This document shows, one piece after another, positions 5,415 to 41,611 of a DNA stretch of 45,471 bases. The position numbers and the translations under genes are program-made. The stretch spans positions 1-45,471 of the IMG/VR virus record IMGVR_UViG_3300025656_000004. The stretch is one strand, 5' to 3'. Below the pieces are notes generated by a model, which saw only the letters and a list, made by a program, of their open reading frames with translations, made no database searches and was not told the origin of the DNA. The DNA is from a virus. The number at the start of each line of letters is the position of its first letter. Positions within the stretch are counted from its first letter, which is position 1.

Positions 5415-7289
5415 CTAATTAAGTGACATTGTATTCAAAGGTCTCTGACCCACTAAACCACCGTAATAGTAATCTACTGTTACTTGGTCGGAAACCCCTA
5501 CTATATTACCTTTATTACCAAAGTAGTCTTTGTCAATCAAGGCGGAATCATCTAAAGCGAAACCATCTGTAAACGTTTTTTCTAATTGTAAACCATAAAC
5601 GTCTTCAAGTGTGGTTAAATTATTTAATCTTTTACTATGCACAAAGGCTGTTAGTTCGTTGAATGTTAATGACTCAGGTCGACCTAACTCCAAATCTGTA
5701 ACTACTCTATCACCACTTCCGTTTAATAAGCTTTCGTTTAGTCCTAAGCTGTTAAGTGGAGTGTTGAAGTCATCGTACAATGTGAACGTGTCAACAAGCG
5801 TTTTATTTAAGTGTACATCTCTAGTATCGCTTACTGAGTAGCTGTCAGAATACGCTCTTACATATCCAACCGTTCTACTAAAGTTATCACTAAAACCGAA
5901 GCTGTCTGTATATGCTCTATCGTATGATACGGTTCTACTGAATACATCGCTAAAGCTGAATATATTGCCTTTAGTGGAATCTACGTCTTTGTTTACTTGT
6001 GCTGAATCATCAAGCGCAAATCCATCACTCAAGCCTTTCATGATATTACGGATATAAGTATCACTAAAACCAATTGACTCGCTCTTAACTAATTCAGGTT
6101 GTAAAGTGTTTGTATCTGTTACTGTGTATGAATCTTCTACAGGGTGATTTAATATAAATCCTACTAATTCAACTAAAGCAATTCCGTCTGTTAAATCTTT
6201 ACTAGCCTCATAACTTAATACATCACTAAAGGTAAATACGTTTCCTTTGTTACCGAAGTAATCTTTGTCTACTTGTAGTGCGTCATCAAGCGTGAATGCG
6301 TCTGATATTGCCTTATTTAGCGTAGTTCTGTATGTATCTGATAAAGTGGTAGAGTCAGACTTATTTAAGCCTTGTAGGATAGATACTTCATCTAGCTGTG
6401 AAATGCTATCTGTTAATGCTTTTCCGAAGTTATTACCTAATAAATCACTGAAACCGAATATGTTACCTTTATTTCCTGTGAAGTCTTTATTGATTAGCGC
6501 TGAATCATCTAATGTGAACGCATCTTCTATACGTTTAACTAAACCCTTGGCATAAGTCTCAGCTAAACTGATATTTTCGAGCTTTCCTAGGTTTGAATAT
6601 ACTAGGATTTCGTCTGTTGCTGTAACTGTTTCGGTCTTAGAACTAGACACCTCTTTTGAGGTTGTATCAATAACACTAACTTCCTCAGAAGGTGCTTTAT
6701 CGAGAGCATACGAATTTGCATCAGTGACTGAGTAGCTATCAGTGAATGTTCTTACCCAATCTATAGCTAATGTTACTACGTCTGAAACTGTTACTCTTCT
6801 GTCATCTTCAGAGCCATCGTCATTAAGCTCGCCGGAGTTTAAAGTTCCTAGATTTAGTTGGTTTTTATTTGTGAAGTCTTTATGGTAAGTTAGCCCGATA
6901 ATATCAAGCATGAACGCAACATTACCCTTGTTACCATAGAAGTCTTTATCAATTTGACTTAGGTCATCTAGTGTAAAGGCATCAGTAAACGCTCTATTGA
7001 ATGTTACAACCTTTGCGAAACTCTCAACCAATGCCAATGTTTCAGGTGCGTTCTTAGCGTATGACCAGCCTACTACCTCATCAAGCGTTACTGTTTCTGA
7101 TAAGTTTTTCTCTACAAGACTGAACTGTACATCGCTCAGAGTAGCTACCTCATAGAACCACTGATTCTTACTATCAGGATTTACAAATGCTATAGCTTCT
7201 GCGTTGACGTTAGTCGTCTTAGCAGAAAGACTTATATGTTTTGTATCTGCTGATGCCCGAACAACTGTAATTGTCGCTCTGATAGCCAC
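5415..7289 (-). CDS. Repeat-rich tail appendage protein
   Basis: A protein of 624 residues built from at least five degenerate copies of a module of about 90-120 residues. Each copy is marked by D-A/G-F-A/T-LDD, I/V-N/DKD-(x)4-NKGN-I/V-x-x-x-SD. Copies begin near residues 98, 265, 334, 441 and 595. Shorter DSYSV-T/S-D units lie between them. The N-terminal 40 residues (residues IRATITVVRASADTKHISLS) differ and may attach to the tail. No catalytic motif is visible. The regular repeats suggest a long fibrous or beta-helical shaft on the tail tip. It starts one base after the preceding gene. Confidence 0.6.
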   Translation of the reverse strand: MAIRATITVVRASADTKHISLSAKTTNVNAEAIAFVNPDSKNQWFYEVATLSDVQFSLVEKNLSETVTLDEVVGWSYAKNAPETLALVESFAKVVTFNRAFTDAFTLDDLSQIDKDFYGNKGNVAFMLDIIGLTYHKDFTNKNQLNLGTLNSGELNDDGSEDDRRVTVSDVVTLAIDWVRTFTDSYSVTDANSYALDKAPSEEVSVIDTTSKEVSSSKTETVTATDEILVYSNLGKLENISLAETYAKGLVKRIEDAFTLDDSALINKDFTGNKGNIFGFSDLLGNNFGKALTDSISQLDEVSILQGLNKSDSTTLSDTYRTTLNKAISDAFTLDDALQVDKDYFGNKGNVFTFSDVLSYEASKDLTDGIALVELVGFILNHPVEDSYTVTDTNTLQPELVKSESIGFSDTYIRNIMKGLSDGFALDDSAQVNKDVDSTKGNIFSFSDVFSRTVSYDRAYTDSFGFSDNFSRTVGYVRAYSDSYSVSDTRDVHLNKTLVDTFTLYDDFNTPLNSLGLNESLLNGSGDRVVTDLELGRPESLTFNELTAFVHSKRLNNLTTLEDVYGLQLEKTFTDGFALDDSALIDKDYFGNKGNIVGVSDQVTVDYYYGGLVGQRPLNTMSLN

Positions 7290-7290
7290 T

Positions 7291-7671
7291 TTAGAATCCT
7301 GCTCTTACATCAAACTTCAATAGGTCAGGTACAGACATGAATTTACCATTAGAATACTCCAACTCAATCTCGCCTTCATAATCACCACTAATTGAGTCTA
7401 GGTCTGTTAAGCCCCAATTCATAATAACATGACCTTCTGTGTAAGGAGCTACCCTAGTACACCCAATCGTTGCTTTAAGTGTGGTTGAGCCTACCTCTCT
7501 AAACTTTAATCTGACTGCTGATACATTAGTAATATCAATCGGATTCCAAGTTGAAGGGTCTGTAATATCTAAGGTCTTTCCTACTTCGGCTAGGTTGCTA
7601 TCTCGTAGAGTAATATCTAACTCAGGTAGGTCGTCACCTGATACTAATTTAATTGTGTTGTAATATGCCAT
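7291..7671 (-). CDS. BppU-like baseplate protein N-terminal domain
   Basis: A protein of 126 residues. The pattern LVSGDDLPELDITLRDSN, STWNPIDIT, VRLKFREVGSTTLKATI, GDYEGEIELEYSNGK and DLLKFDVR is the usual layout of the BppU N-terminal domain (receptor-binding protein anchor) found as a stand-alone gene in many siphophages. The domain normally links fibres to the distal tail. It lies immediately before the repeat-rich appendage gene, which it may anchor (inferred from order). Confidence 0.7.
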   Translation of the reverse strand: MAYYNTIKLVSGDDLPELDITLRDSNLAEVGKTLDITDPSTWNPIDITNVSAVRLKFREVGSTTLKATIGCTRVAPYTEGHVIMNWGLTDLDSISGDYEGEIELEYSNGKFMSVPDLLKFDVRAGF

Positions 7672-7713
7672 GGTTGTATTCTACCTATAAAATTAATTAA
7701 TTGTCACTGTCTT

Positions 7714-7920
7714 CTAATTGTCTTCTTTTGAGATTTGCGGGTTTTGTTCTGCTTCCTCAGGTATTACCTTTACAGCTGTCATCTTATCTCGACTAACATT
7801 AAAATCACTGCACAACAAGTTTGGGTTATACACTACATCTTCTATAGTGTCAACAGCTATAACTTTATTACCTTGATCGTCTACAAAAGAAAACATAGGT
7901 CTTAACATTGATTCAATCAT
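7714..7920 (-). CDS. Small protein of the tail module, unknown
   Basis: A protein of 68 residues from ATG 7920. An upstream TTG at 7947 is possible, but the ATG is preferred because it lies eight bases inside the end of the previous gene and follows a GGGGCGG stretch. The sequence (MIESMLRPMFSFVDDQGNKV) ends in an acidic tail. There is no recognisable domain. Conserved position suggests a small tail-tip accessory protein. Confidence 0.5.
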   Translation of the reverse strand: MIESMLRPMFSFVDDQGNKVIAVDTIEDVVYNPNLLCSDFNVSRDKMTAVKVIPEEAEQNPQISKEDN

Positions 7921-20693: not shown

Positions 20694-22031
20694 TTATTCG
20701 TTAATAGTCCCTTCTAAGACCCTCTCAGTCGGTAACTTTGCTTTCTCTTCTTCTATTGTTGTATCCGGAGGAAGAAGCTCTCCTTTTTTCATATTATATA
20801 GTAATGTATCTAAAGATATAACCCCTTGCTGATACGCTTGGATTATAGCATTTAAACCTTGATGATCTAGTACATCATCTAAATAATCTTTGTTGACCTC
20901 TACAGACACCTCGTCTGGGTCAAAACCTTCCCAAATAGCTACAGTTTTAAGTATTTTAATCATACCTGTTTCAACTGATTGGGCTATATTTGTTAAGATA
21001 GATGCTTCGCTACTGTGCCTAATTTTCGCTGTGTGAGCTGACTCTACAACTTTAGAATCCTTCTCGAACAACCTTGCAGACAAAATAGCCATCATTTGTT
21101 CTTTATGTTTTAGCGCATTCTCTAACGCAGTCAAACCTTGACCTGTAAACTCTAAGAAACCTGCTTTACTGCCCGCATCAGGTAGTACCCAAGCAGACGA
21201 CGAACCAATCTTTAACTCTGTTTCATTTGGATCTACACCACTCACCCAAGGTGTGGGTAATGCTGTGAAATGTCTTCCGTGCTCTAAATCAGCGCTAGAT
21301 CTATAGTGACTTAAGTTAACGTCTATTAAATCTAATAACGGCGGTCTAGATATATCTTCTGTAACGCCGTCTGGCGTCACCGTAAAAAACGGTATGTTAT
21401 CAATTTGAAGACCTCTATTTGACGGTGTATATGATTTTATGATTGACCACTCAGCGGATTTATCTGTTTGAGACCAAACATTAACTGAGTAACCTTCATC
21501 TGTCAATACGAGTTCTCTGTAAATGTCTACAGGTGAAAACTCATATGGATCGTCTTCAGCTGGCTCTAAAACTGTCTCTAACAACACTTTAGTGTTATCC
21601 CACCAGTTTACGAACGACTCCGTTTGATAACCTACTAAGTAAGGTCTACCACCGTCTTCTGCTCTATCAACAAGAACTGAGTATCTACCTGTTAGTAGCA
21701 CCTCTTGTAGCATTATCTTCATAAATTGATTAATGGACACACCAGTATTTGTGACATCATCTAATAGATGCGCCATACCTTCTGGTACCTTAATCAATGG
21801 TGGTCTCCTCAAGACTGATCCGACTAAACCTGCAAGGGTTCTAGCTGTCGCCCCATAATAAAGTGCTCTGTCTCTATACGAACTATACTCAACAGCCGTT
21901 TGACCGCTGAGTGCTGGTAAATACATTTTACCTTTTGCTTTTACTGTATCAGAGCCTTCATACGTGTCACGAGATCGTGTCCAACGCACAAAATTTGCTG
22001 TATACTCTGGATGAATTGAATTAATTGGCAT
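20694..22031 (-). CDS. Portal protein (DUF4055 family)
   Basis: A protein of 445 residues. It matches the DUF4055 portal family: HPEYTANFVRWTRSRDTYEG, YLPALSGQT, YRDRALYYGATARTLAGLVG, VLRRPPLI-x-VPEG and VLLTGRYSVLVDRAEDGGRPY. The helical stem lies around 340-400 (SVETGMIKILKTVAIWEGFD). It forms the dodecameric DNA gate at one vertex and docks the terminase. Spacing of three bases to TerL. Confidence 0.88.
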   Translation of the reverse strand: MPINSIHPEYTANFVRWTRSRDTYEGSDTVKAKGKMYLPALSGQTAVEYSSYRDRALYYGATARTLAGLVGSVLRRPPLIKVPEGMAHLLDDVTNTGVSINQFMKIMLQEVLLTGRYSVLVDRAEDGGRPYLVGYQTESFVNWWDNTKVLLETVLEPAEDDPYEFSPVDIYRELVLTDEGYSVNVWSQTDKSAEWSIIKSYTPSNRGLQIDNIPFFTVTPDGVTEDISRPPLLDLIDVNLSHYRSSADLEHGRHFTALPTPWVSGVDPNETELKIGSSSAWVLPDAGSKAGFLEFTGQGLTALENALKHKEQMMAILSARLFEKDSKVVESAHTAKIRHSSEASILTNIAQSVETGMIKILKTVAIWEGFDPDEVSVEVNKDYLDDVLDHQGLNAIIQAYQQGVISLDTLLYNMKKGELLPPDTTIEEEKAKLPTERVLEGTINE

Positions 22032-22034
22032 AAT

Positions 22035-23444
22035 TTAAAATCCTACTACTTTAGCTAAAGATAATCGCCTGTCCGCTGACAGAACTCTATATCTTAGCAC
22101 ATCATAATCGTGGTCTACTGCGTTAGTATCAACATCCTCTGGATTTTTCTCTGACCTAGGCAATGCAGGCAAGTTAGTAATTAAATTCCTACAAGTTGAC
22201 GAAACATATAACCCCGCTTCTTCTTGTGGATGTTGTAAACTAGCTTTTAACATCTGCCTAACTCTAGATAGACCATTTATTCTCGAACCTGGTTTTTTAT
22301 CTGACTTAACCCACCTGACCCCTACTCTCTCCATATCTTCTGCAATAGATTGACCATTTTGCACGTCAAATATAGCGTTATCTGCAGGACCTGGTGTTGT
22401 CCTATATTGTAAACCCATTTCTAACTCCGCACGCTTAATTTTTCTAGCTATCTCACCTGCGGTCTCTCTAAGGCCTTCGCCCTTAGCATTTGCGCCATAT
22501 AACTCAGCAATAACAAACACCGTTTTTGGTTGAAAAGACCTAACTATTCCATCTGCCATAACGACATCTGAACCGTCTGACTCCGCGAACCAAAGCACTG
22601 AATATGGACTAGACGAACCCCAATCAAACCCTCTATTTATTTTCCAACTACGAGGAATCTCAAACGGCTCTACTATGTGTACAGCAGGCGACCATATATC
22701 GTCTACGGCACCACCTGCTGTAATCGCCCAGTCGCCATTGAGCATAGCCTCAATTAAGTGGTCTGAACCTAACCCTCGTAACCTATCTGCATAATGCGGG
22801 TCATTCTCAGTTAGAGTCTTATTATCTGATAACTTAGCTGGTACATACTGCCTAATCATACCACCGTCATGCGACTCTGTTCTCCAAGCACTCTCGCCTT
22901 GGTCTACAAAATTCTTTTTCCAAAAATTATGTGCTATACCACCAGGGTTTGAACAAGCTAAAATCCTTGGGAACATGCCAACGTATTCTTTAGGTACCTT
23001 TAATGACCCAAGCCTCACACGAGATCTAAGAAATCTATAAACTTCCTCTGATAAGTGAGTGGATTCATCGACTGCTAAAAACCCGATTTGCGCACCTTGA
23101 TAATTAGTCATATCAGAATCGTGCTGACAATGGGCGAGTGTTATTCGTGATCCATTTTTAAAGTCAATAGAGTTATCTGACCAGTTGATTTTAACTAACC
23201 CATCATCTACAAACTCTTTAAGTAATTCTGGAAAACCACCAGATGTTCTCATATGGTTAGCGATTAACTCTTTATAGGTACGTCTAAAAATATACGTTTG
23301 TAGGCCAGGTATCTGTATTGAATACACAATAGCGGCTACTCTCAACAAATGTGACTTTCCACCACCTGCAGCTCCACCATATAATATTTCAGTCGCACTA
23401 GAATTTAGCGCAGCGTATTGGCGAGGGTGGAGAGTTAAGTTCAT
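22035..23444 (-). CDS. Terminase large subunit
   Basis: A protein of 469 residues. The N-terminal ATPase has Walker A GGAAGGGKS (residues 23-31), preceded by HPRQYAAL, and Walker B FLAVDE (122-127) with STHL following. The nuclease half begins NRGFDWGSSSPYSVLW (Asp of RNase H fold, about 273) and ends AVDHDYDVLRYRVLS, with the second acidic cluster around GPADNAIFDVQNG. It packages DNA through the portal. The gene starts one base after the small upstream gene's stop begins. Confidence 0.92.
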   Translation of the reverse strand: MNLTLHPRQYAALNSSATEILYGGAAGGGKSHLLRVAAIVYSIQIPGLQTYIFRRTYKELIANHMRTSGGFPELLKEFVDDGLVKINWSDNSIDFKNGSRITLAHCQHDSDMTNYQGAQIGFLAVDESTHLSEEVYRFLRSRVRLGSLKVPKEYVGMFPRILACSNPGGIAHNFWKKNFVDQGESAWRTESHDGGMIRQYVPAKLSDNKTLTENDPHYADRLRGLGSDHLIEAMLNGDWAITAGGAVDDIWSPAVHIVEPFEIPRSWKINRGFDWGSSSPYSVLWFAESDGSDVVMADGIVRSFQPKTVFVIAELYGANAKGEGLRETAGEIARKIKRAELEMGLQYRTTPGPADNAIFDVQNGQSIAEDMERVGVRWVKSDKKPGSRINGLSRVRQMLKASLQHPQEEAGLYVSSTCRNLITNLPALPRSEKNPEDVDTNAVDHDYDVLRYRVLSADRRLSLAKVVGF

Positions 23445-23692
23445 TAATCAGACACTTCGTCTGTCAGCATAGACACTTTAAGTATACCAAAGTCTTGGTG
23501 TACGTCTGCTTTAATCTCCATAGATTTAAGTTTTGGTTCTACGTACTCAGCGACTGTTTTATGGCACTGCATTTGTATACCTTTATCCGTCTCTTTATCT
23601 GTGGCTAGTTCAACTAACGCAAGAAGTGGGTGATAACCTGGTGTACGCTCATGAAGCATTTTTAAAATTCTGTTCTCTGTATTAGCTAGCAT
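23444..23692 (-). CDS. TerS-like protein (candidate small terminase)
   Basis: A protein of 82 residues directly before TerL. The pattern HPLLALVELATDKETD, QMQCHKTVAEYVEPKLKSME resembles the short 'xPL-x-x-M-x-x-D-x-E ... AAPY-HP-LAS-E' proteins that serve as small terminase subunits in phages with Terminase_6 large subunits. It is shorter than classic TerS and lacks a visible N-terminal HTH, so DNA recognition could need another protein such as the 24027-24383 product. First gene of the late operon. Confidence 0.6.
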   Translation of the reverse strand: MLANTENRILKMLHERTPGYHPLLALVELATDKETDKGIQMQCHKTVAEYVEPKLKSMEIKADVHQDFGILKVSMLTDEVSD

Positions 23693-23760: not shown

Positions 23761-23864
23761 GATACTTACAGCCCTCGCCTACTTAGATATCTAGATATTA
23801 GATATCTTGATATTAGATATTGGATATCTTGATATTAGATATTGGATACTTACAGCCCTCGCCT
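23761..23864. repeat. Nested direct repeats beside the terminase genes
   Basis: A 20-bp direct repeat, gatacttacagccctcgcct, occurs at 23761-23780 and 23845-23864. Between the copies lies a perfect tandem duplication of 22 bp, gatatcttgatattagatat followed by tg (23801-23822 and 23823-23844), with a degraded third copy before it. This fits a binding array for terminase (pac/cos region) or for a replication protein; the choice is not possible from sequence. Confidence 0.75.
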
Positions 23865-23925
23865 AATATGCGGTTTTAACATATGTGTATAAGTCGGCCC
23901 AGACGAAAAAATTCCGGACCAACAT

Positions 23926-23956
23926 AGGGCGGGCGGCAGGCCTGGCCAGGGCCCCC
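23926..23956. other. GC-rich palindrome cluster, candidate packaging site
   Basis: A stretch of about 30 bases, nearly all G and C, stands out in the AT-rich surroundings. It contains three overlapping palindromes: CAGGCCTG (23937-23944), CTGGCCAG (23942-23949) and GGGCCC (23949-23954). It is non-coding and lies within 300 bases of the terminase genes, so a cos or pac site is a reasonable guess. No experimental signature can be seen here. Confidence 0.4.
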
Positions 23957-23969
23957 AAATATTATACAT

Positions 23970-24000
23970 AAAAAAGCCCGAATTTTTTAGATTCAGGCTT
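23970..24000 (-). terminator. Rho-independent terminator
   Basis: Minus-strand stem AAGCCTGAAT (24000-23991) with ATTCGGGCTT (23983-23974), ten pairs including one G-U, loop CTAAAAA, followed by T residues. It ends the unit for the gene at 24027-24383 and separates it from the late operon promoter. Confidence 0.85.
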
Positions 24001-24026
24001 CAATTTATTTTTTATTTATTTTATTT

Positions 24027-24383
24027 TTAAGCTTCGACTTGAGTTTTTTCCCACTCACGATAGATCGATTTGAAAGTAAATCCCTTGCGAGCCGAATAAA
24101 CTTGGCCGTAAGATAATCCAAGCTCTTTAGCGACAGCATTATGCGATAATTCCCTGTGCTCGCCGATCATCATGTCTCTAGCATCGGCTTCAGTCATTTC
24201 TCTCGTCGATTTTGGCCCGCGATTTCGAACCGGCGCAACTTTCATTGAATTAATTTTTTCGATAATTTCATTCAACTTTTCGGCCACATTTTTAACTGTT
24301 AATTTTGACTCTAAATTTAATAGTTCAATTTGAGCTTCAACTTCATTAACGATTTCATTTACTTCTTGATTTTTATTTGACAT
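24027..24383 (-). CDS. Putative DNA-binding regulator with C-terminal HTH
   Basis: A protein of 118 residues. The first 50 residues form an acidic coiled coil (EIVNEVEAQIELLNLESKL). A basic linker VRNRGPKSTRE follows, then a helix-turn-helix-like segment LSHNAVAKELGLSYGQVYSA (about 81-100). It has its own promoter and terminator and lies between terminase and the repeat region, so it could be a late-gene regulator, an origin-binding protein, or the DNA-recognition partner of terminase. RBS AAGGAGACACTAAT. Confidence 0.6.
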   Translation of the reverse strand: MSNKNQEVNEIVNEVEAQIELLNLESKLTVKNVAEKLNEIIEKINSMKVAPVRNRGPKSTREMTEADARDMMIGEHRELSHNAVAKELGLSYGQVYSARKGFTFKSIYREWEKTQVEA

Positions 24384-24440
24384 ATTAGTGTCTCCTTATT
24401 ATTATTTAAAGTGTGATTCTTTTTATTTGATCACAGTTTT

Positions 24441-24475
24441 ATTATACCGTATTAATAATATATTTGTGAGTTTAT
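24441..24475 (-). promoter_or_regulatory. Phage promoter P1 (TATTATTAATAC-GG-TATAAT type)
   Basis: Read on the minus strand: ATAAACTCACAAAT (24475-24462), then ATTATTAATACGG and TATAAT (24446-24441). The ATAAACYCACAAAT element recurs before two other minus-strand units and the ATTATTAATAC-x-GTATAAT core recurs on the plus strand at 38511-38531. It lies 58 bases before the start of the HTH gene. Confidence 0.65.
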
Positions 24476-24533
24476 TTCATTTAAATTCATAAATACTTTG
24501 CATGGCCAATATAGTTATATGTGAACTGTCTTA

Positions 24534-24614
24534 TACAAGAGTTTTCTAATACATCTATATTAGATTTAGCTAATACAAGAGTTTTCTAATACATCTATAT
24601 TAGATTTAGCTAAT
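24534..24614. repeat. Tandem repeat, 40-bp unit, two copies
   Basis: The unit running from tacaagagttttctaatac through catctatattagatttagc is present twice in tandem with a period of 40 bp and is essentially identical in both copies. Each unit contains the inverted pair taatac..../atctatattagat. It is non-coding, between the HTH gene's promoter and the small membrane gene. Confidence 0.8.
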
Positions 24615-24633
24615 AACCTCAAATCCTTATATT

Positions 24634-24714
24634 CCCATGCTTAAACTCTCGCCCGCATTCGCCCGCATTCGCTAATTCATGAGGACCCATGCTTAAACTC
24701 TCGCCCGCATTCGC
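24634..24714. repeat. Direct repeats with cgcccgcattcgc words
   Basis: A direct repeat of about 28 bp, cccatgcttaaactctcgcc plus cgcattcg, occurs at about 24634-24661 and 24687-24714. The first copy is followed by a second gcccgcattcgc. These are members of a dispersed GGGCGA word family that fills the non-coding region to about 26360. Confidence 0.7.
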
Positions 24715-24861
24715 CTACAAAAAATAACCAATAAGAAAACCGACTGTTAAACCAATTGCGATACCACTTATTAACGTCGCTTTAAATATGTGTACTCTTT
24801 TGCCGTTGATGTAACATCCTGTTATGTTTGACCTTCTATTAAATTCCCCTAAAACATTCAT
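24715..24861 (-). CDS. 48-residue membrane protein
   Basis: ATG 24861 overlaps the upstream stop as ATGA. The product begins MNVLGEFNRRSNITGCYING and ends with one strong transmembrane helix (IAIGLTVGFLIGYFL) after a basic stretch (GKRVHIFKA). This suggests an N-in single-pass inner membrane protein. Function unknown; translational coupling to the acidic 62-residue protein suggests they act together. Confidence 0.6.
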   Translation of the reverse strand: MNVLGEFNRRSNITGCYINGKRVHIFKATLISGIAIGLTVGFLIGYFL

Positions 24862-25046
24862 TGATAAACCTCAATATCTAATTCTTCAGCAAGAGTGTAT
24901 ATCTGATCATCTGTAAGGTCCTCGTTCATCTGATTGAATAACATATCATGGTAACAATCAATTAGTAGTTCACTTGGTGCGTTATCAGACTCTATTTTAG
25001 CAATCTCATGTAACGCTTCATCTTTAGTTAGTTTTGTTTTTGGCAT
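24858..25046 (-). CDS. Small acidic protein, unknown
   Basis: A protein of 62 residues, MPKTKLTKDEALHEIAKIES onward, predicted all-helical with a net negative charge (NQMNEDLTDDQIYTLAEELD). It has a strong RBS (CAGGAGAAACTGAC) and its own promoter 40 bases upstream. No family is recognised. Small size, helical make-up and early-type promoter would fit a host-takeover or anti-defence protein, but nothing in the sequence proves this. Confidence 0.6.
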   Translation of the reverse strand: MPKTKLTKDEALHEIAKIESDNAPSELLIDCYHDMLFNQMNEDLTDDQIYTLAEELDIEVYQ

Positions 25047-25085
25047 GTCAGTTTCTCCTGTTGTTATTTAATTTTTGACAAGGTC

Positions 25086-25104
25086 ATTATATCATATTAT
25101 TAAT
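25086..25104 (-). promoter_or_regulatory. Phage promoter P2
   Basis: Minus strand: ATTAATAATAT (25104-25094) followed two bases on by TATAAT (25091-25086). It belongs to the AT-repeat promoter family seen at four other places and lies 40 bases before the ATG of the 62-residue protein. Confidence 0.6.
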
Positions 25105-25224
25105 ATGGGATGTGATTAAAAACATGGCTCCACTAATTTTAATTTTCACTGTGGTATTACCTACTCTCGCCCACCTATGCGGCGAAACTCATGGAAACCC
25201 AGATGGCGGGTCCACTACCCACCT

Positions 25225-25317
25225 AAGAAGCCTCACATTCGCCCACTCGGGAATTCCTTTAAGAAGCCTCACATTCGCCCACTCGGGAATTCCTTTAAGA
25301 AGCCTCACATTCGCCCA
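25225..25317. repeat. 36-bp tandem repeat, 2.6 copies
   Basis: The unit aagaagcctcacattcgccc plus actcgggaattccttt occurs at 25225-25260 and 25261-25296, with a partial third copy at 25297-25317 that continues into further attcgccc words. There are no spacers between units, so this is not CRISPR. Each unit contains the palindrome GGAATTCC. Confidence 0.85.
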
Positions 25318-25546
25318 CATTCGCCCGCTCGCCTTGGAGGGCTCACATTCGCCTTAACAGACCGCAAAACGATAGAGCGTGATAGAGCTAATAAAATTTG
25401 TCAGCCGATATATTATATGACTAACTAATAAAGCTTTTAATATCAGCTAATTTGACGCACTCAGCTATATGATATGTGTATAGCATGTTTATAACCAATT
25501 GCTGCAGCAAAGGGCGAGTGGGCGCGTTGGTTAGAAATAAGATAAT

Positions 25547-25585
25547 GAGATACTTAGTGTTGAAATGTGAGATACTTAGTGTTGA
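25547..25585. repeat. 17-bp direct repeat
   Basis: gagatacttagtgttga occurs at 25547-25563 and 25569-25585, a period of 22 bp or two helical turns. The same gatactta core occurs in the repeats beside terminase (23761, 23845). Confidence 0.7.
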
Positions 25586-25664
25586 GATATTAAGAGCCCT
25601 CGCCAACTCGGTCCGGCTAATTCTTCTGCCTGCCGCCAGGTGTAAAAAGAGGGCGAGTAGGCGA

Positions 25665-25764
25665 GTTGCTAAAAGTAGAATAAGCGAGGGTTGCTAAAAG
25701 TAGAATAAGCGAGGGTTGCTAAAAGTAAAGAGGTTTAGAGTTGCCAAAAGTAAAGAGGGCGAGT
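25665..25764. repeat. 25-bp iteron-like tandem array, four copies
   Basis: Units start at 25665, 25690, 25715 and 25740. The first two are identical (gttgctaaaagtagaataag followed by cgagg); the last two keep gttgcyaaaagta and diverge after it. Exact 25-bp spacing and conserved left halves are as expected of iterons bound by an initiator protein. Confidence 0.8.
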
Positions 25765-25864
25765 TTCTATTGTCACTATAACTTGCTACCAAGTACAAAA
25801 AGAAGGCGAATTGGCGAGTAACCTCTATTACCACTTATAACCACAAATACTGTGTTTTGTCTTT

Positions 25865-26218
25865 TGTCTACTAAAACTTTCAGTTCACCCGGTTTTTACC
25901 ATATTAATACTAGCCTTTCTTGATCGGAAATAGAGATAATAAAAAGACAAAAGACAGCACTAGCACTTTACCGTTATATATCAATGGTTTACGTTGTCTA
26001 CTAATCGTCTACCAGCTGCGCTTTGGATAGCTGCGACATTTTTCCCTCGATTTAACCTATATTTGGTACTTTCTCAACTTCCCTATTTTTCATCAAAAGA
26101 AGACGATCGTACCATTTTCCTAGTAAAATCAATGACTTACGCTGTCTACTTTTCGTGTCTACTAAATCTTTAATCAGTCCACTTGTAACCACTCAGCCAG
26201 CCCGCACTACTGTCTACT
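25865..26218. repeat. TGTCTACT repeat family
   Basis: TGTCTACT occurs five times in the same direction (25865, 25995, 26143, 26156, 26211), with CGTCTACC at 26006. Two of these lie in longer imperfect copies of about 33 bp starting tcaatg (25981-26013 and 26129-26163). The related word aagacagygctag occurs at 25951 and 26300. Probable protein-binding sites. Confidence 0.65.
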
Positions 26219-26380
26219 TTTTTATTTCCGCATGATTAATACGGTCTCGGACTCACATATTTGATGCCTTTTTTGGCATAAACCCGCAAATCTCAAAAAA
26301 AGACAGTGCTAGAAGACAGCAAAAGAAGACAAAGTAGTTTAAGCTAATATTGGGCGAATTGCAACGCTTTTACGCGCTAA

Positions 26381-26408
26381 AAAGGCCATTAAAAATGACC
26401 TTTGGTTT
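26381..26408. terminator. Terminator after the accessory gene cluster
   Basis: Minus strand: AAAGGTCAT (26403-26395) pairs with ATGGCCTTT (26389-26381), nine pairs with one G-U, followed by TTTT. A short T-run also follows on the plus side (GGTTTTT), so it could work in both directions. It ends the minus-strand cluster at 26434 and shields the repeat region. Confidence 0.75.
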
Positions 26409-26433
26409 TTACTGTTATTTGGTGGTTTTTACG

Positions 26434-26814
26434 CTAGCTAACCTTCGAAACCCTCTTTTTACGAGTAGAATTCTTCAAGAAATTAAAGTCAGATTCCTCT
26501 TCTTTGGTCATCACACAAGTCTCGCTTATCTCTGTTTTTAAACTCTCGAATAATTCTATGTTATCTTGGTTGTCCACCCAAATGTTTGAGCACAAGTCTA
26601 ACCTATCTAAAGTATCATTAACCATCTCTTGTGATGGTTTAAACCGTTCATTGATGTATTTGTAACTAGAGTTTCGCCTAATATCTTGCACTTTACCAGG
26701 TGTTGTCGCGAATAAGCGCGCGACCTGAGTTAGCCCTAGATCTTGGTAATTAAACCGTACTTGCCATACTAGCGGCAACGGGAATCTGCCGTTAATAATT
26801 TTTGGTGTTGTCAT
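26434..26814 (-). CDS. Putative DNA-binding protein with HTH
   Basis: A protein of 126 residues. LGLTQVARLFATTPGKVQDIRRNSSYKYI (two segments of helix-turn-helix type) covers about residues 27-55. The C-terminal 50 residues are charged and end in the basic segment RKKRVS. Similar short HTH proteins occur in many phages, where they may regulate transcription. It is the last gene of the minus accessory cluster and is preceded by a perfect inverted repeat that could be an operator. RBS CGGAGTATATT. Confidence 0.6.
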   Translation of the reverse strand: MTTPKIINGRFPLPLVWQVRFNYQDLGLTQVARLFATTPGKVQDIRRNSSYKYINERFKPSQEMVNDTLDRLDLCSNIWVDNQDNIELFESLKTEISETCVMTKEEESDFNFLKNSTRKKRVSKVS

Positions 26815-30589: not shown

Positions 30590-31069
30590 TTACGTAGAGA
30601 ACAGCGAGTCCACGGTTGTGGTAGGTACGTCTTGCACTCGCTCTAAGCATTCGCTAGCGTTCGCTTCGTTGGCGTTCGCTTCGTTGGCGTTCGCTTTTTT
30701 ACCTACGAATACAATACGCTGGTTTTTAAGTGTGACTTCGTAAGCGTTCGCTTCGAACATGTGTAACCATGTCGTCCACTCAGATGGAGCTATTATAACC
30801 TTACTAAAAGCTTCTTTATGCAGGTATACGTACTTAAATAATAGCTCTAACTCTTTGTCTGTAGCTATAATCCAGTCATAAGGCAGCTCTGTGCAGTTGT
30901 AATCCCAAGAGAAATAGTACCAACTATTTTTTATGGTATACTCAACATCATTGACGTGCAAAAGCTTAAGCAATTCACGCTGGAACGCTTTAGTTTTATA
31001 CCAGTTACCAGTTTCATGCTTAGCATATAACCTAAGGTATAGGAAAAGTAATTTAGCCTCGATACCCAT
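30590..31069 (-). CDS. Unknown early protein with ANANE tandem repeat
   Basis: A protein of 159 residues if started at ATG 31069 (a GTG 18 bases upstream is also possible; neither has a clear RBS). The N-terminus is helical and basic (GIEAKLLFLYLRLYAKHETG), the middle rich in Trp and Tyr (NSWYYFSWDYNCTELPYDW). Near the end KKANANEANANEANASE encodes a 5-residue repeat from a 15-bp DNA repeat. It is the first minus-strand gene at the divergent promoter region, opposite the primase, so probably early. Function unknown. Confidence 0.55.
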   Translation of the reverse strand: MGIEAKLLFLYLRLYAKHETGNWYKTKAFQRELLKLLHVNDVEYTIKNSWYYFSWDYNCTELPYDWIIATDKELELLFKYVYLHKEAFSKVIIAPSEWTTWLHMFEANAYEVTLKNQRIVFVGKKANANEANANEANASECLERVQDVPTTTVDSLFST

Positions 31070-31138
31070 ATTAGTCCATTCTAACACAAAACACTAATTA
31101 AAGTTAACATTTATTTTATGTAGATTATTTGGTTGAGT

Positions 31139-39925: not shown

Positions 39926-41611
39926 ATGAGATATTTATTATTAACTTTAGGACACAATTCGTCAGCTGTATTAGTTGGCGAAGAAGGTCAAGTACTCTGT
40001 GGTTACGAAGAAGAGCGCTTAACAAAAGTAAAAGCTGATTCATCTTTTCCATATAATTCAATCCAAGAAATTCAAAAATATTTTGATATACCTAATGATG
40101 TAACCATTTACATCAGTCATTGGTTTATTAATGGGTCACTCCCAACAACGCCAAATAAGTGGTATGATCAAAAGTATTTATACAAAAACTTTAAGGATTG
40201 TCAAGTTATTTCACTTAGCGCTGACTTTACACACCATGATGCTCACGCTTATTCAGCTTTAGCGTTTTGTGGAAAAAAGGTCAGCAAATCTAAGACGCTA
40301 GTGGTTGTAGCAGACGGCTTCGGTAATTATGGCGAAACTATGTCAATTTATTGGCGAGATGATAACCCTACTACACCTGACATTAAGCTACACCATAGGT
40401 CATTTGGGTTTTCGTCTTCTTTAGGTTTGCTGTTTCAGTACGCCACGTCTTTTCTAGGTTTAAAAGAAAATCAAGATGAGTATAAACTACTTGGTTATGA
40501 AGCGCATATAACAGATATAGTAACTATAGAGCAAATAAATACGTTAAACGATACAGCTGTTAGATGGACTAAGAAGCAATTTAAGGACATCGGTAATTAT
40601 GATGTTAAAGATAGGTACGATCCATTGTGCTCAATTGACGCTTTACCGGCTTTAAAACTTAACTATAGAGAGCACTTTAAAACGGTTTTAGACAGTGTTA
40701 ATGCAAAAGGTATTGCATTTGATAGTTGGGATAGTAGAGTTATTATTGCTTACTATGTACAAAAGCGTATCGAATTAGCTATGAGAGCTATTCTAACCGC
40801 TTATGCGCCGTTCAATGTAATAGCAGTTGGCGGATTATTTATGAATGTAAAACTAAATAATTCAATAGCAAAGTTACTACCTCCAAAAGGTAAGTTATCA
40901 ATTATGCCGTTATCTGGTGATCAAGGCGCAGCTATTGGTATATACCACTCCATCCATAAGAACTTTAAGTTCGATAATTTATATTATGGTAAACGTGATC
41001 TATCTAAGATAGTGTCAGAACCATTTTATAAAGCGGACAATAATTTGATTATCACCAATAGTGAATTACATGCTAGATCGCTAGTATTAGATAAACTTAA
41101 GAAAAATGAAATTGTGAATGTAGTAAGAGGTGCTATGGAGTTTGGCTCAAGAGCTTTATGTCACACAACGACACTAGCTTTACCAACACTTGAAAATATT
41201 CAATACATTAATAAGTTAAATGGCCGGTCGACTATCATGCCAATGGCCCCAGTTATTAGAGATAAAGACGTTGAGTACTTCTTTAAAGGTGGTAATAAGA
41301 TTGTTGAGTCGCTTAAATATATGATCACGACGTTAGACTTTAACAAAGTAACGGATGATATTATTGGCGCAGCTCATAAGATGCCTTTAGAAGATGTGCA
41401 TACTGGCCGACCTCAAACCATCTCGCGAGATGATGAGTTTATGTGGTACATCTTAACAAACCTTAATCCTAGAATGTTGATTAATACGTCGTTCAATATA
41501 CATGGAAAACCGATTGTGTTTGATGGGAAAGACGTATTAATTCATCACAACGGTCAAATGGAAGCAGCGACAGATCGTAAACCATACACAATAGTTATCG
41601 TAGGAGAATAA
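39926..41611 (+). CDS. Carbamoyltransferase (NodU/TobZ family)
   Basis: A protein of 561 residues, usual family length. The N-terminal ASKHA-type domain has LTLGHNSSAVLV (7-18), EEERLTKVK (28-36) and the metal-site motif THHDAHA (102-108). VVVADGFGNYGETMS, VIAVGGLFMNVKLNNSI and MPLSGDQGAAIGIY follow. The C-terminal domain has VRGAMEFGSRALCH (the GPRALG region) and LINTSFNIHGKPIVFDG. The family transfers carbamoyl from carbamoyl phosphate to a hydroxyl with ATP. Beside a dCMP hydroxymethylase the likely substrate is 5-hydroxymethylcytosine in DNA (inference). First of five modification-linked genes. Confidence 0.92.
   Translation: MRYLLLTLGHNSSAVLVGEEGQVLCGYEEERLTKVKADSSFPYNSIQEIQKYFDIPNDVTIYISHWFINGSLPTTPNKWYDQKYLYKNFKDCQVISLSADFTHHDAHAYSALAFCGKKVSKSKTLVVVADGFGNYGETMSIYWRDDNPTTPDIKLHHRSFGFSSSLGLLFQYATSFLGLKENQDEYKLLGYEAHITDIVTIEQINTLNDTAVRWTKKQFKDIGNYDVKDRYDPLCSIDALPALKLNYREHFKTVLDSVNAKGIAFDSWDSRVIIAYYVQKRIELAMRAILTAYAPFNVIAVGGLFMNVKLNNSIAKLLPPKGKLSIMPLSGDQGAAIGIYHSIHKNFKFDNLYYGKRDLSKIVSEPFYKADNNLIITNSELHARSLVLDKLKKNEIVNVVRGAMEFGSRALCHTTTLALPTLENIQYINKLNGRSTIMPMAPVIRDKDVEYFFKGGNKIVESLKYMITTLDFNKVTDDIIGAAHKMPLEDVHTGRPQTISRDDEFMWYILTNLNPRMLINTSFNIHGKPIVFDGKDVLIHHNGQMEAATDRKPYTIVIVGE

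Follow-up and report, generated by a model that had tools for sequence, protein, structure and literature searches.

A repeat-rich gap beside the terminase genes of a marine phage is a candidate inner part of a packaging-end locus

RESULTS

A candidate packaging-end junction in the window

The repeat-rich gap at 25.1-26.4 kb of the marine phage genome analysed in this study (a linear virus record of 45,471 bp, the whole of which is referred to as the window) belongs to a junction that Xp15/Effie-like siphoviruses conserve between their early and terminase genes, and it has, by our estimate, an even chance of forming the inner portion of a locus for cutting and packaging of the virion genome. 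As judged from the sequence, the packaging-end locus would be centred at 23.76-24.0 kb and the gap would lie just inside its terminal repeat, a placement for and against which we see equal weight. It follows from the likeness of the junction to the pac region of SPP1 and from locating the end through relatives, in the manner used for cobaviruses.

The features on which this reading is based are listed in Table 1. The gene at 23444-23692 is presumably the terminase small subunit, a role that is assigned from its position alone. The interval 25047-26433 is the widest gap between likely genes in the window; the first-pass annotation had called it the largest gene-free stretch, and ORFs within it that reach 60 aa do score as noncoding (-0.2 to -0.4 bits/codon by the codon usage of this phage, under which the large assigned genes reach +0.15 bits/codon or higher). 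The ORFs at 25112-25697 were accordingly ruled out as coding by codon usage, and the frame of the ORF at 25476-25697 is in addition altered by a 25-bp copy change in the near-identical contig L006. A promoter-like site at approximately 25.08-25.11 kb belongs with the small gene at the left of the gap. No tRNA was found, and searches for RNA families returned sub-threshold matches only. The gap is flanked by two gene blocks, as the annotation stated, but because both blocks run leftward, the region is not divergent. The AT-rich tracts that it reported were not recovered, since the GC content at 25.0-26.5 kb is approximately 39-40%, the same as that of the rest of the genome; a stretch of 80% AT is located at 24.4-24.5 kb.

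Two further repeats were seen elsewhere in the window. An AT-rich palindrome, TATTATTAATA, is intergenic at 24460, 25095, 28744, 30413, and 38512, and TATAAT adjoins it in at least three of these five places, as if it were a shared promoter feature of the phage. The 15-mer GCGTTCGCTTCGTTG is present in 2.7 exact copies at 30657-30696, within the gene at 30590-31087.

Table 1. Positions of genes, repeats, and sequence elements in the window
Feature	Position	Strand or direction	Remarks
Remote copy of 26283-26320	7707-7744	-	Two TGTCTTCT boxes and GAGATTTGCGGGTTT; late region
Late genes	from 23.7 kb	leftward	TerL, portal, capsid, tape measure
Portal	20694-22031	leftward	
Terminase large subunit (TerL)	22035-23444	-	
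terS-position gene	23444-23692	-	Directly before TerL; adjoins the junction in most relatives
YTCGCC-rich domain	23765-25818		22 copies at 23.7-25.85 kb vs 2.2 expected
22-mer tandem array	23783-23848		2.8 copies, with TACTTACAGCCCTCGCC repeats on its flanks; terminase side of the element
Terminus element, GGGGCCC-N-CGGAATTTTTTC	23904-23957	-	Predicted genome end/packaging cut
Gene A	24027-24383	-	Helix-turn-helix protein, 118 aa
40-mer tandem array	24532-24615		2.1 copies; early-side array
Small gene within the junction	24858-25046	-	62 aa; coding score, +0.34 bits/codon
36-mer tandem array with CATTCGCC words	25224-25331		Two exact copies and a partial one
GGGCGAG words	25511, 25650, 25803		
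GAGATACTTAGTGTTGA repeat	25546-25588		Two copies; spacing, 22 bp
25-mer tandem array	25663-25758		About four copies
TGTCTWYT box cluster	25858-26331		11 strict (13 relaxed) boxes in both orientations; origin candidate
Gene B	26434-26814	-	Helix-turn-helix protein, 126 aa; early side of the interval
Small early genes	26.4-31.1 kb	leftward	
Replication genes	from 31.2 kb	rightward	Prim-Pol/DUF5906, PolA, exonuclease, helicase, carbamoyltransferase, thymidylate synthase

Extent and composition of the repeat block

Four direct-repeat families had been annotated within 25105-26380, and the presence of direct-repeat families there was confirmed. Repeated 10-mers cover 332 bases of this region, compared with a window median of 46 and with 17.9 +/- 18.9 bases (maximum, 80; n = 200) in dinucleotide shuffles. 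The repeat complexity is therefore far above chance, as had been claimed with respect to the rest of the genome, but the repeats are denser still to the left: the density peaks in 1.3-kb segments beginning at 24.3-24.6 kb, and the true extent of the block, approximately 23.76-26.34 kb, is larger than that originally marked. The block is composed of two motif systems, i.e., YTCGCC words with tandem arrays at 23.76-25.82 kb, several of the words being spaced 8 or 10 bp apart, and TGTCTWYT boxes at 25.86-26.33 kb, where GTCTAC and AAGACA words are found at 25858-26331. Within the window, the motifs of 25105-26380 occur only in the repeat block and at 7.7 kb.

Near-identical DNA is present in five IMG/VR contigs. 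One of them, L006, covers the region with a single mismatch over 5.4 kb apart from differences in copy number; it is without one 36-mer copy and one 25-mer copy, and its terminus element, its TGTCTWYT block, and its two remaining arrays are identical to those of the window. The window DNA has no nucleotide matches to phages or plasmids. The 36-mer core has an exact match among the viral_contigs only in L010, which is the same as L006, and none in genome_contigs, so that sharing of the 36-mer with a host was rejected.

Genes A and B and their relatives

Proteins A and B are probably DNA binding, as indicated by fold prediction. The model of protein A is helical (pLDDT = 81) with a well-predicted helix-turn-helix, and that of protein B is helical with a helix-turn-helix (pLDDT = 77.6); neither predicted fold has a significant match to solved structures, and a PDB sequence match of gene B to a haemagglutinin was rejected as chance. 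No gene A was found in bacterial genomes. Among 50,697 phage records, homologues of A and B are restricted to the Xanthomonas phage Xp15 and the Acinetobacter phages Effie, HHU4, and MD-2021a (two records), while the IMG/VR loci comprise 15 with gene A and 13 with gene B, including L006 and Xp15 itself. In the four named phages, A and B are approximately 1.0-1.5 kb apart, in sparsely coding DNA that has early genes on one side and the terminase on the other. The window has the same arrangement, in which A and B flank a sparse interval beside the terminase as in the junction of the Xp15/Effie type. No description of this junction was found in the literature searched. In a separate block, that of replication and nucleotide genes, the window carries a NodU-type carbamoyltransferase gene (39926-41611), and Xp15 and MD-2021a have one too.

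The junction is the maximum of repeat density in Xp15 and MD-2021a and ranks third in Effie, and the main repeat peak falls within approximately 1 kb of the start of gene A in most of the IMG/VR loci with that gene. Repeats inside the interval between B and A are found in Xp15, Effie, and L108 and not in every relative. The array units are unrelated in sequence between phages; a dyad, GATAATNATTATC, is present in several of them.

A conserved element next to the terminase genes

Between gene A and the terminase genes, 1.2 kb outside the region 25105-26380, lies an element of approximately 54 bp with the form GGGGCCC-(about 25 mostly G/C)-CAGTTTCCGGGGAATTTTTTC, the length of which is almost invariant across the aligned sites. 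GGGCCC is located between gene A and the late operon in Effie, HHU4, MD-2021a, Xp15, and the window, where this is its single occurrence; it is found near gene A in 11 of 14 loci (2.6 expected) and is the most over-represented of the 64 six-base palindromes. The Effie record contains an exact direct terminal repeat of 3,598 bp with genes A and B both inside, and the right edge of this repeat (...GAGG/CCAGTTTC..., with the slash at the edge) falls within the homologue of the element. Effie is the only relative with recorded genome ends, which were taken as deposited; no terminal repeat is present in the records of the window and Xp15.

A sequence-only model of the element, trained without the window, recovers its training loci plus HHU4 (E = 2.9e-6), L114 (E = 4.5e-10), and L117 (E = 4.6e-6); HHU4 and L114 have close relatives in the training set, and L117 is the more independent case. 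Its best match in the window, with filters off, is the syntenic site at 23957-23904, with a modest score of 10.1 bits and an E value of 0.057, and with default filters the window gives no match. A two-box weight matrix scores 24.3 bits at 23904-23957, compared with 13.9 +/- 2.2 bits (maximum, 19.6) in 60 Markov simulations. The element model has no match in L103 and L110 and only weak ones in L107, L109, and L119. A hairpin in the element was rejected because shuffled sequences do as well, and GGTCCGG was rejected as a packaging signal of the portal relatives because it is not general among them. In Effie and MD-2021a, another element of approximately 85 bp with an inverted CCGCTCTGATTT/AAATCAGAGCGCTA pair is located just beyond the terminus element and recurs at several further sites in the genome; it is seen at 3772-3861 of L086, and copies are found in L086, L087, L097, L095, and L096.

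In most relatives, tandem arrays are placed at similar distances around the terminus element. Early-side arrays lie at -343 to 0 from it in L098, L099, L101, Xp15, L105, L106, L114, and L117, and terminase-side arrays lie at +87 to +194 in L105, L106, L117, and HHU4. The window has arrays on both sides, namely, the 22-mer array, at +109 to +174, and the 40-mer array. Gene A is reversed in the window and in L108, and in both of them the early-side array is beyond gene A, with offsets of -576 to -658 and -585 to -702, respectively. In L117, the order B, A, arrays, element, array, terS-position gene, and TerL is found in a row. Immediately ahead of its terminase genes, a more distant portal relative, L038, has a 30/60-mer array (7250-7680, with the 30-mer in about 13 copies) and poly-T/poly-C runs (7771-7815). 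Shared contig ends in the L038 group were considered as termini and rejected, because L038 has the poly-T/poly-C there and the ends look like assembly breaks.

These offsets bear on whether the repeats have a function at all. Tandem repeats that grow and shrink in a tolerant gap, as slippage-prone filler without a function of their own, would explain why the array units of different phages are unrelated and why the copy number varies, both between the window and L006 (36-mer and 25-mer) and between the near-identical contigs L099 and L100, which differ by one 54-mer. The copy-number differences may, however, be assembly effects, the TGTCTWYT boxes do not form a simple tandem array, and in distant phages the arrays recur at matching distances from a conserved element; we regard filler as the least probable of the explanations considered.

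In the packaging mechanism that we propose, the arrays would be bound by the terminase small subunit, by proteins A and B, or by both, and direct terminal repeats would arise when the terminase cuts concatemers at the element. The 25.1-26.4 kb region would lie inside such a repeat and serve as accessory protein-binding DNA. Binding of the arrays by protein A or B could instead form a regulatory switch, with the arrays as operators for early-to-late transcription and for the gene of the binding protein itself. Such a switch would suit the arrays' frequent position between the gene A start and that of the late operon, the dyad GATAATNATTATC in several phages, and the promoter-like sites at the junction. 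It is nonetheless improbable, though somewhat less so than filler: in the 5-16 kb examined per relative, the dyads are restricted to the surroundings of gene A and are absent from other promoters, and in the window the motifs of 25105-26380 are confined to the block and the 7.7-kb site, while other promoters carry a different, AT-rich palindrome.

The TGTCTWYT boxes and replication initiation

The first-pass annotation had proposed a replication origin in the gap, and the evidence for one is concentrated in the TGTCTWYT block. The 11 strict boxes, against 0.07 expected, are clustered direct repeats of one motif, and several are 11-13 bp apart. A duplicated unit, ATCAATGRYTTACGYTGTCTACT, at 25979 and 26127 of the block fits the IHF consensus as well; the window has five IHF-consensus matches, two of them within the block. 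The second site with the same repeats, at 7707-7744, is 90% identical to 26283-26320 over 40 columns and is located upstream of a late gene. An origin would account for these features if an initiator (the protein of gene B, that of gene A, or the Prim-Pol/DUF5906 helicase) bound the boxes at 25858-26331 and 7.7 kb were a secondary, origin-like site; direct repeats are common to oriL and oriR of SPP1 (PMC6316719), and the relatives L042 and L043 have an iteron-like gap directly after a DUF5906 primase gene. We nevertheless consider an origin only a tentative possibility and a weaker reading than a packaging end. An AT-rich unwinding region is absent, as the block has a GC content of approximately 39-40%, like the genome, and no marked AT-rich tract. 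No recognised initiator adjoins the block, A and B being DNA binding by fold prediction but matching none, and the primase gene is 5 kb distant. Xp15, Effie, and MD-2021a have no comparable box cluster or second site.

No DnaA box was found in 25105-26380. The GC skew has its minimum at approximately 30-31.5 kb, but because it follows gene orientation, it is uninformative on the origin. GTCTAC was rejected as a box conserved in the relatives, since HHU4 and MD-2021a each have only three copies in a cluster, which is a weak signal. The gaps of L042 (2261-2891) and L043 (4226-4856) contain five copies of CCAACCGCATA and four of CTTCTTGATTCAAGAAG, which makes an origin candidate there.

DISCUSSION

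The packaging and origin readings could also be combined. An undescribed packaging-end system with the element of approximately 54 bp, hypervariable arrays at fixed offsets from it, two helix-turn-helix proteins, and, in addition, an origin inside the terminal repeat is unlikely in our view; if it did exist, the formation of DNA ends and the initiation of replication would be coupled. For uncultured phages, genome ends and packaging signals are seldom established, and an element that contains the recorded end in one relative would make the termini of the whole phage group predictable from sequence and testable. A repeat-rich gap of this kind, which is readily taken for an origin, may mark packaging instead.

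In SPP1, TerS binds pacL and pacR, beside the pac cut site (PMC6316719), and gp38 binds oriL and oriR. The pac region (pacL-pacC-pacR) resembles the junction of the window in that the cut site is beside terS and has binding regions on its flanks (PMC6316719). On the other hand, the pac site of SPP1 lies partly within gene 1 and initiates headful packaging, whereas the element of the window is intergenic and Effie has fixed terminal repeats. The oriL and oriR sites, like the repeats of the window, are direct repeats at two distant sites, one of which is in the late region (PMC6316719); the window differs in having no AT-rich unwinding element or known initiator, and its origin function is putative.

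In cobaviruses, an ORF-free region between modules was assigned as the terminal repeat by way of relatives and has a conserved G+C-rich end (PMC6775973). The window likewise has a gene-poor stretch between two gene modules, which relatives place in a predicted terminal repeat, and a conserved G+C-rich candidate end (PMC6775973 for the cobavirus/T7-type arrangement), but these phages, unlike that of the window, are podoviruses with different genes and with repeats of 159-173 bp in the measured isolates.

The closest counterparts are the junctions of the relatives themselves. The Xp15 junction (55.2 kb to 1.7 kb, NC_007024) shares genes A and B with the window; it has 27-mer and 31-mer repeats between A and B, and ahead of its late genes come an AT-rich array and the element. 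Its repeats are unrelated in sequence to those of the window. In Effie (MW176033), gene A runs in the opposite direction and the array sequences are unrelated, and the terminal repeat is recorded there while that of the window is predicted; the two phages nevertheless have in common the two helix-turn-helix genes, the position of the junction, the terminus element, and a short array on the terminase side.
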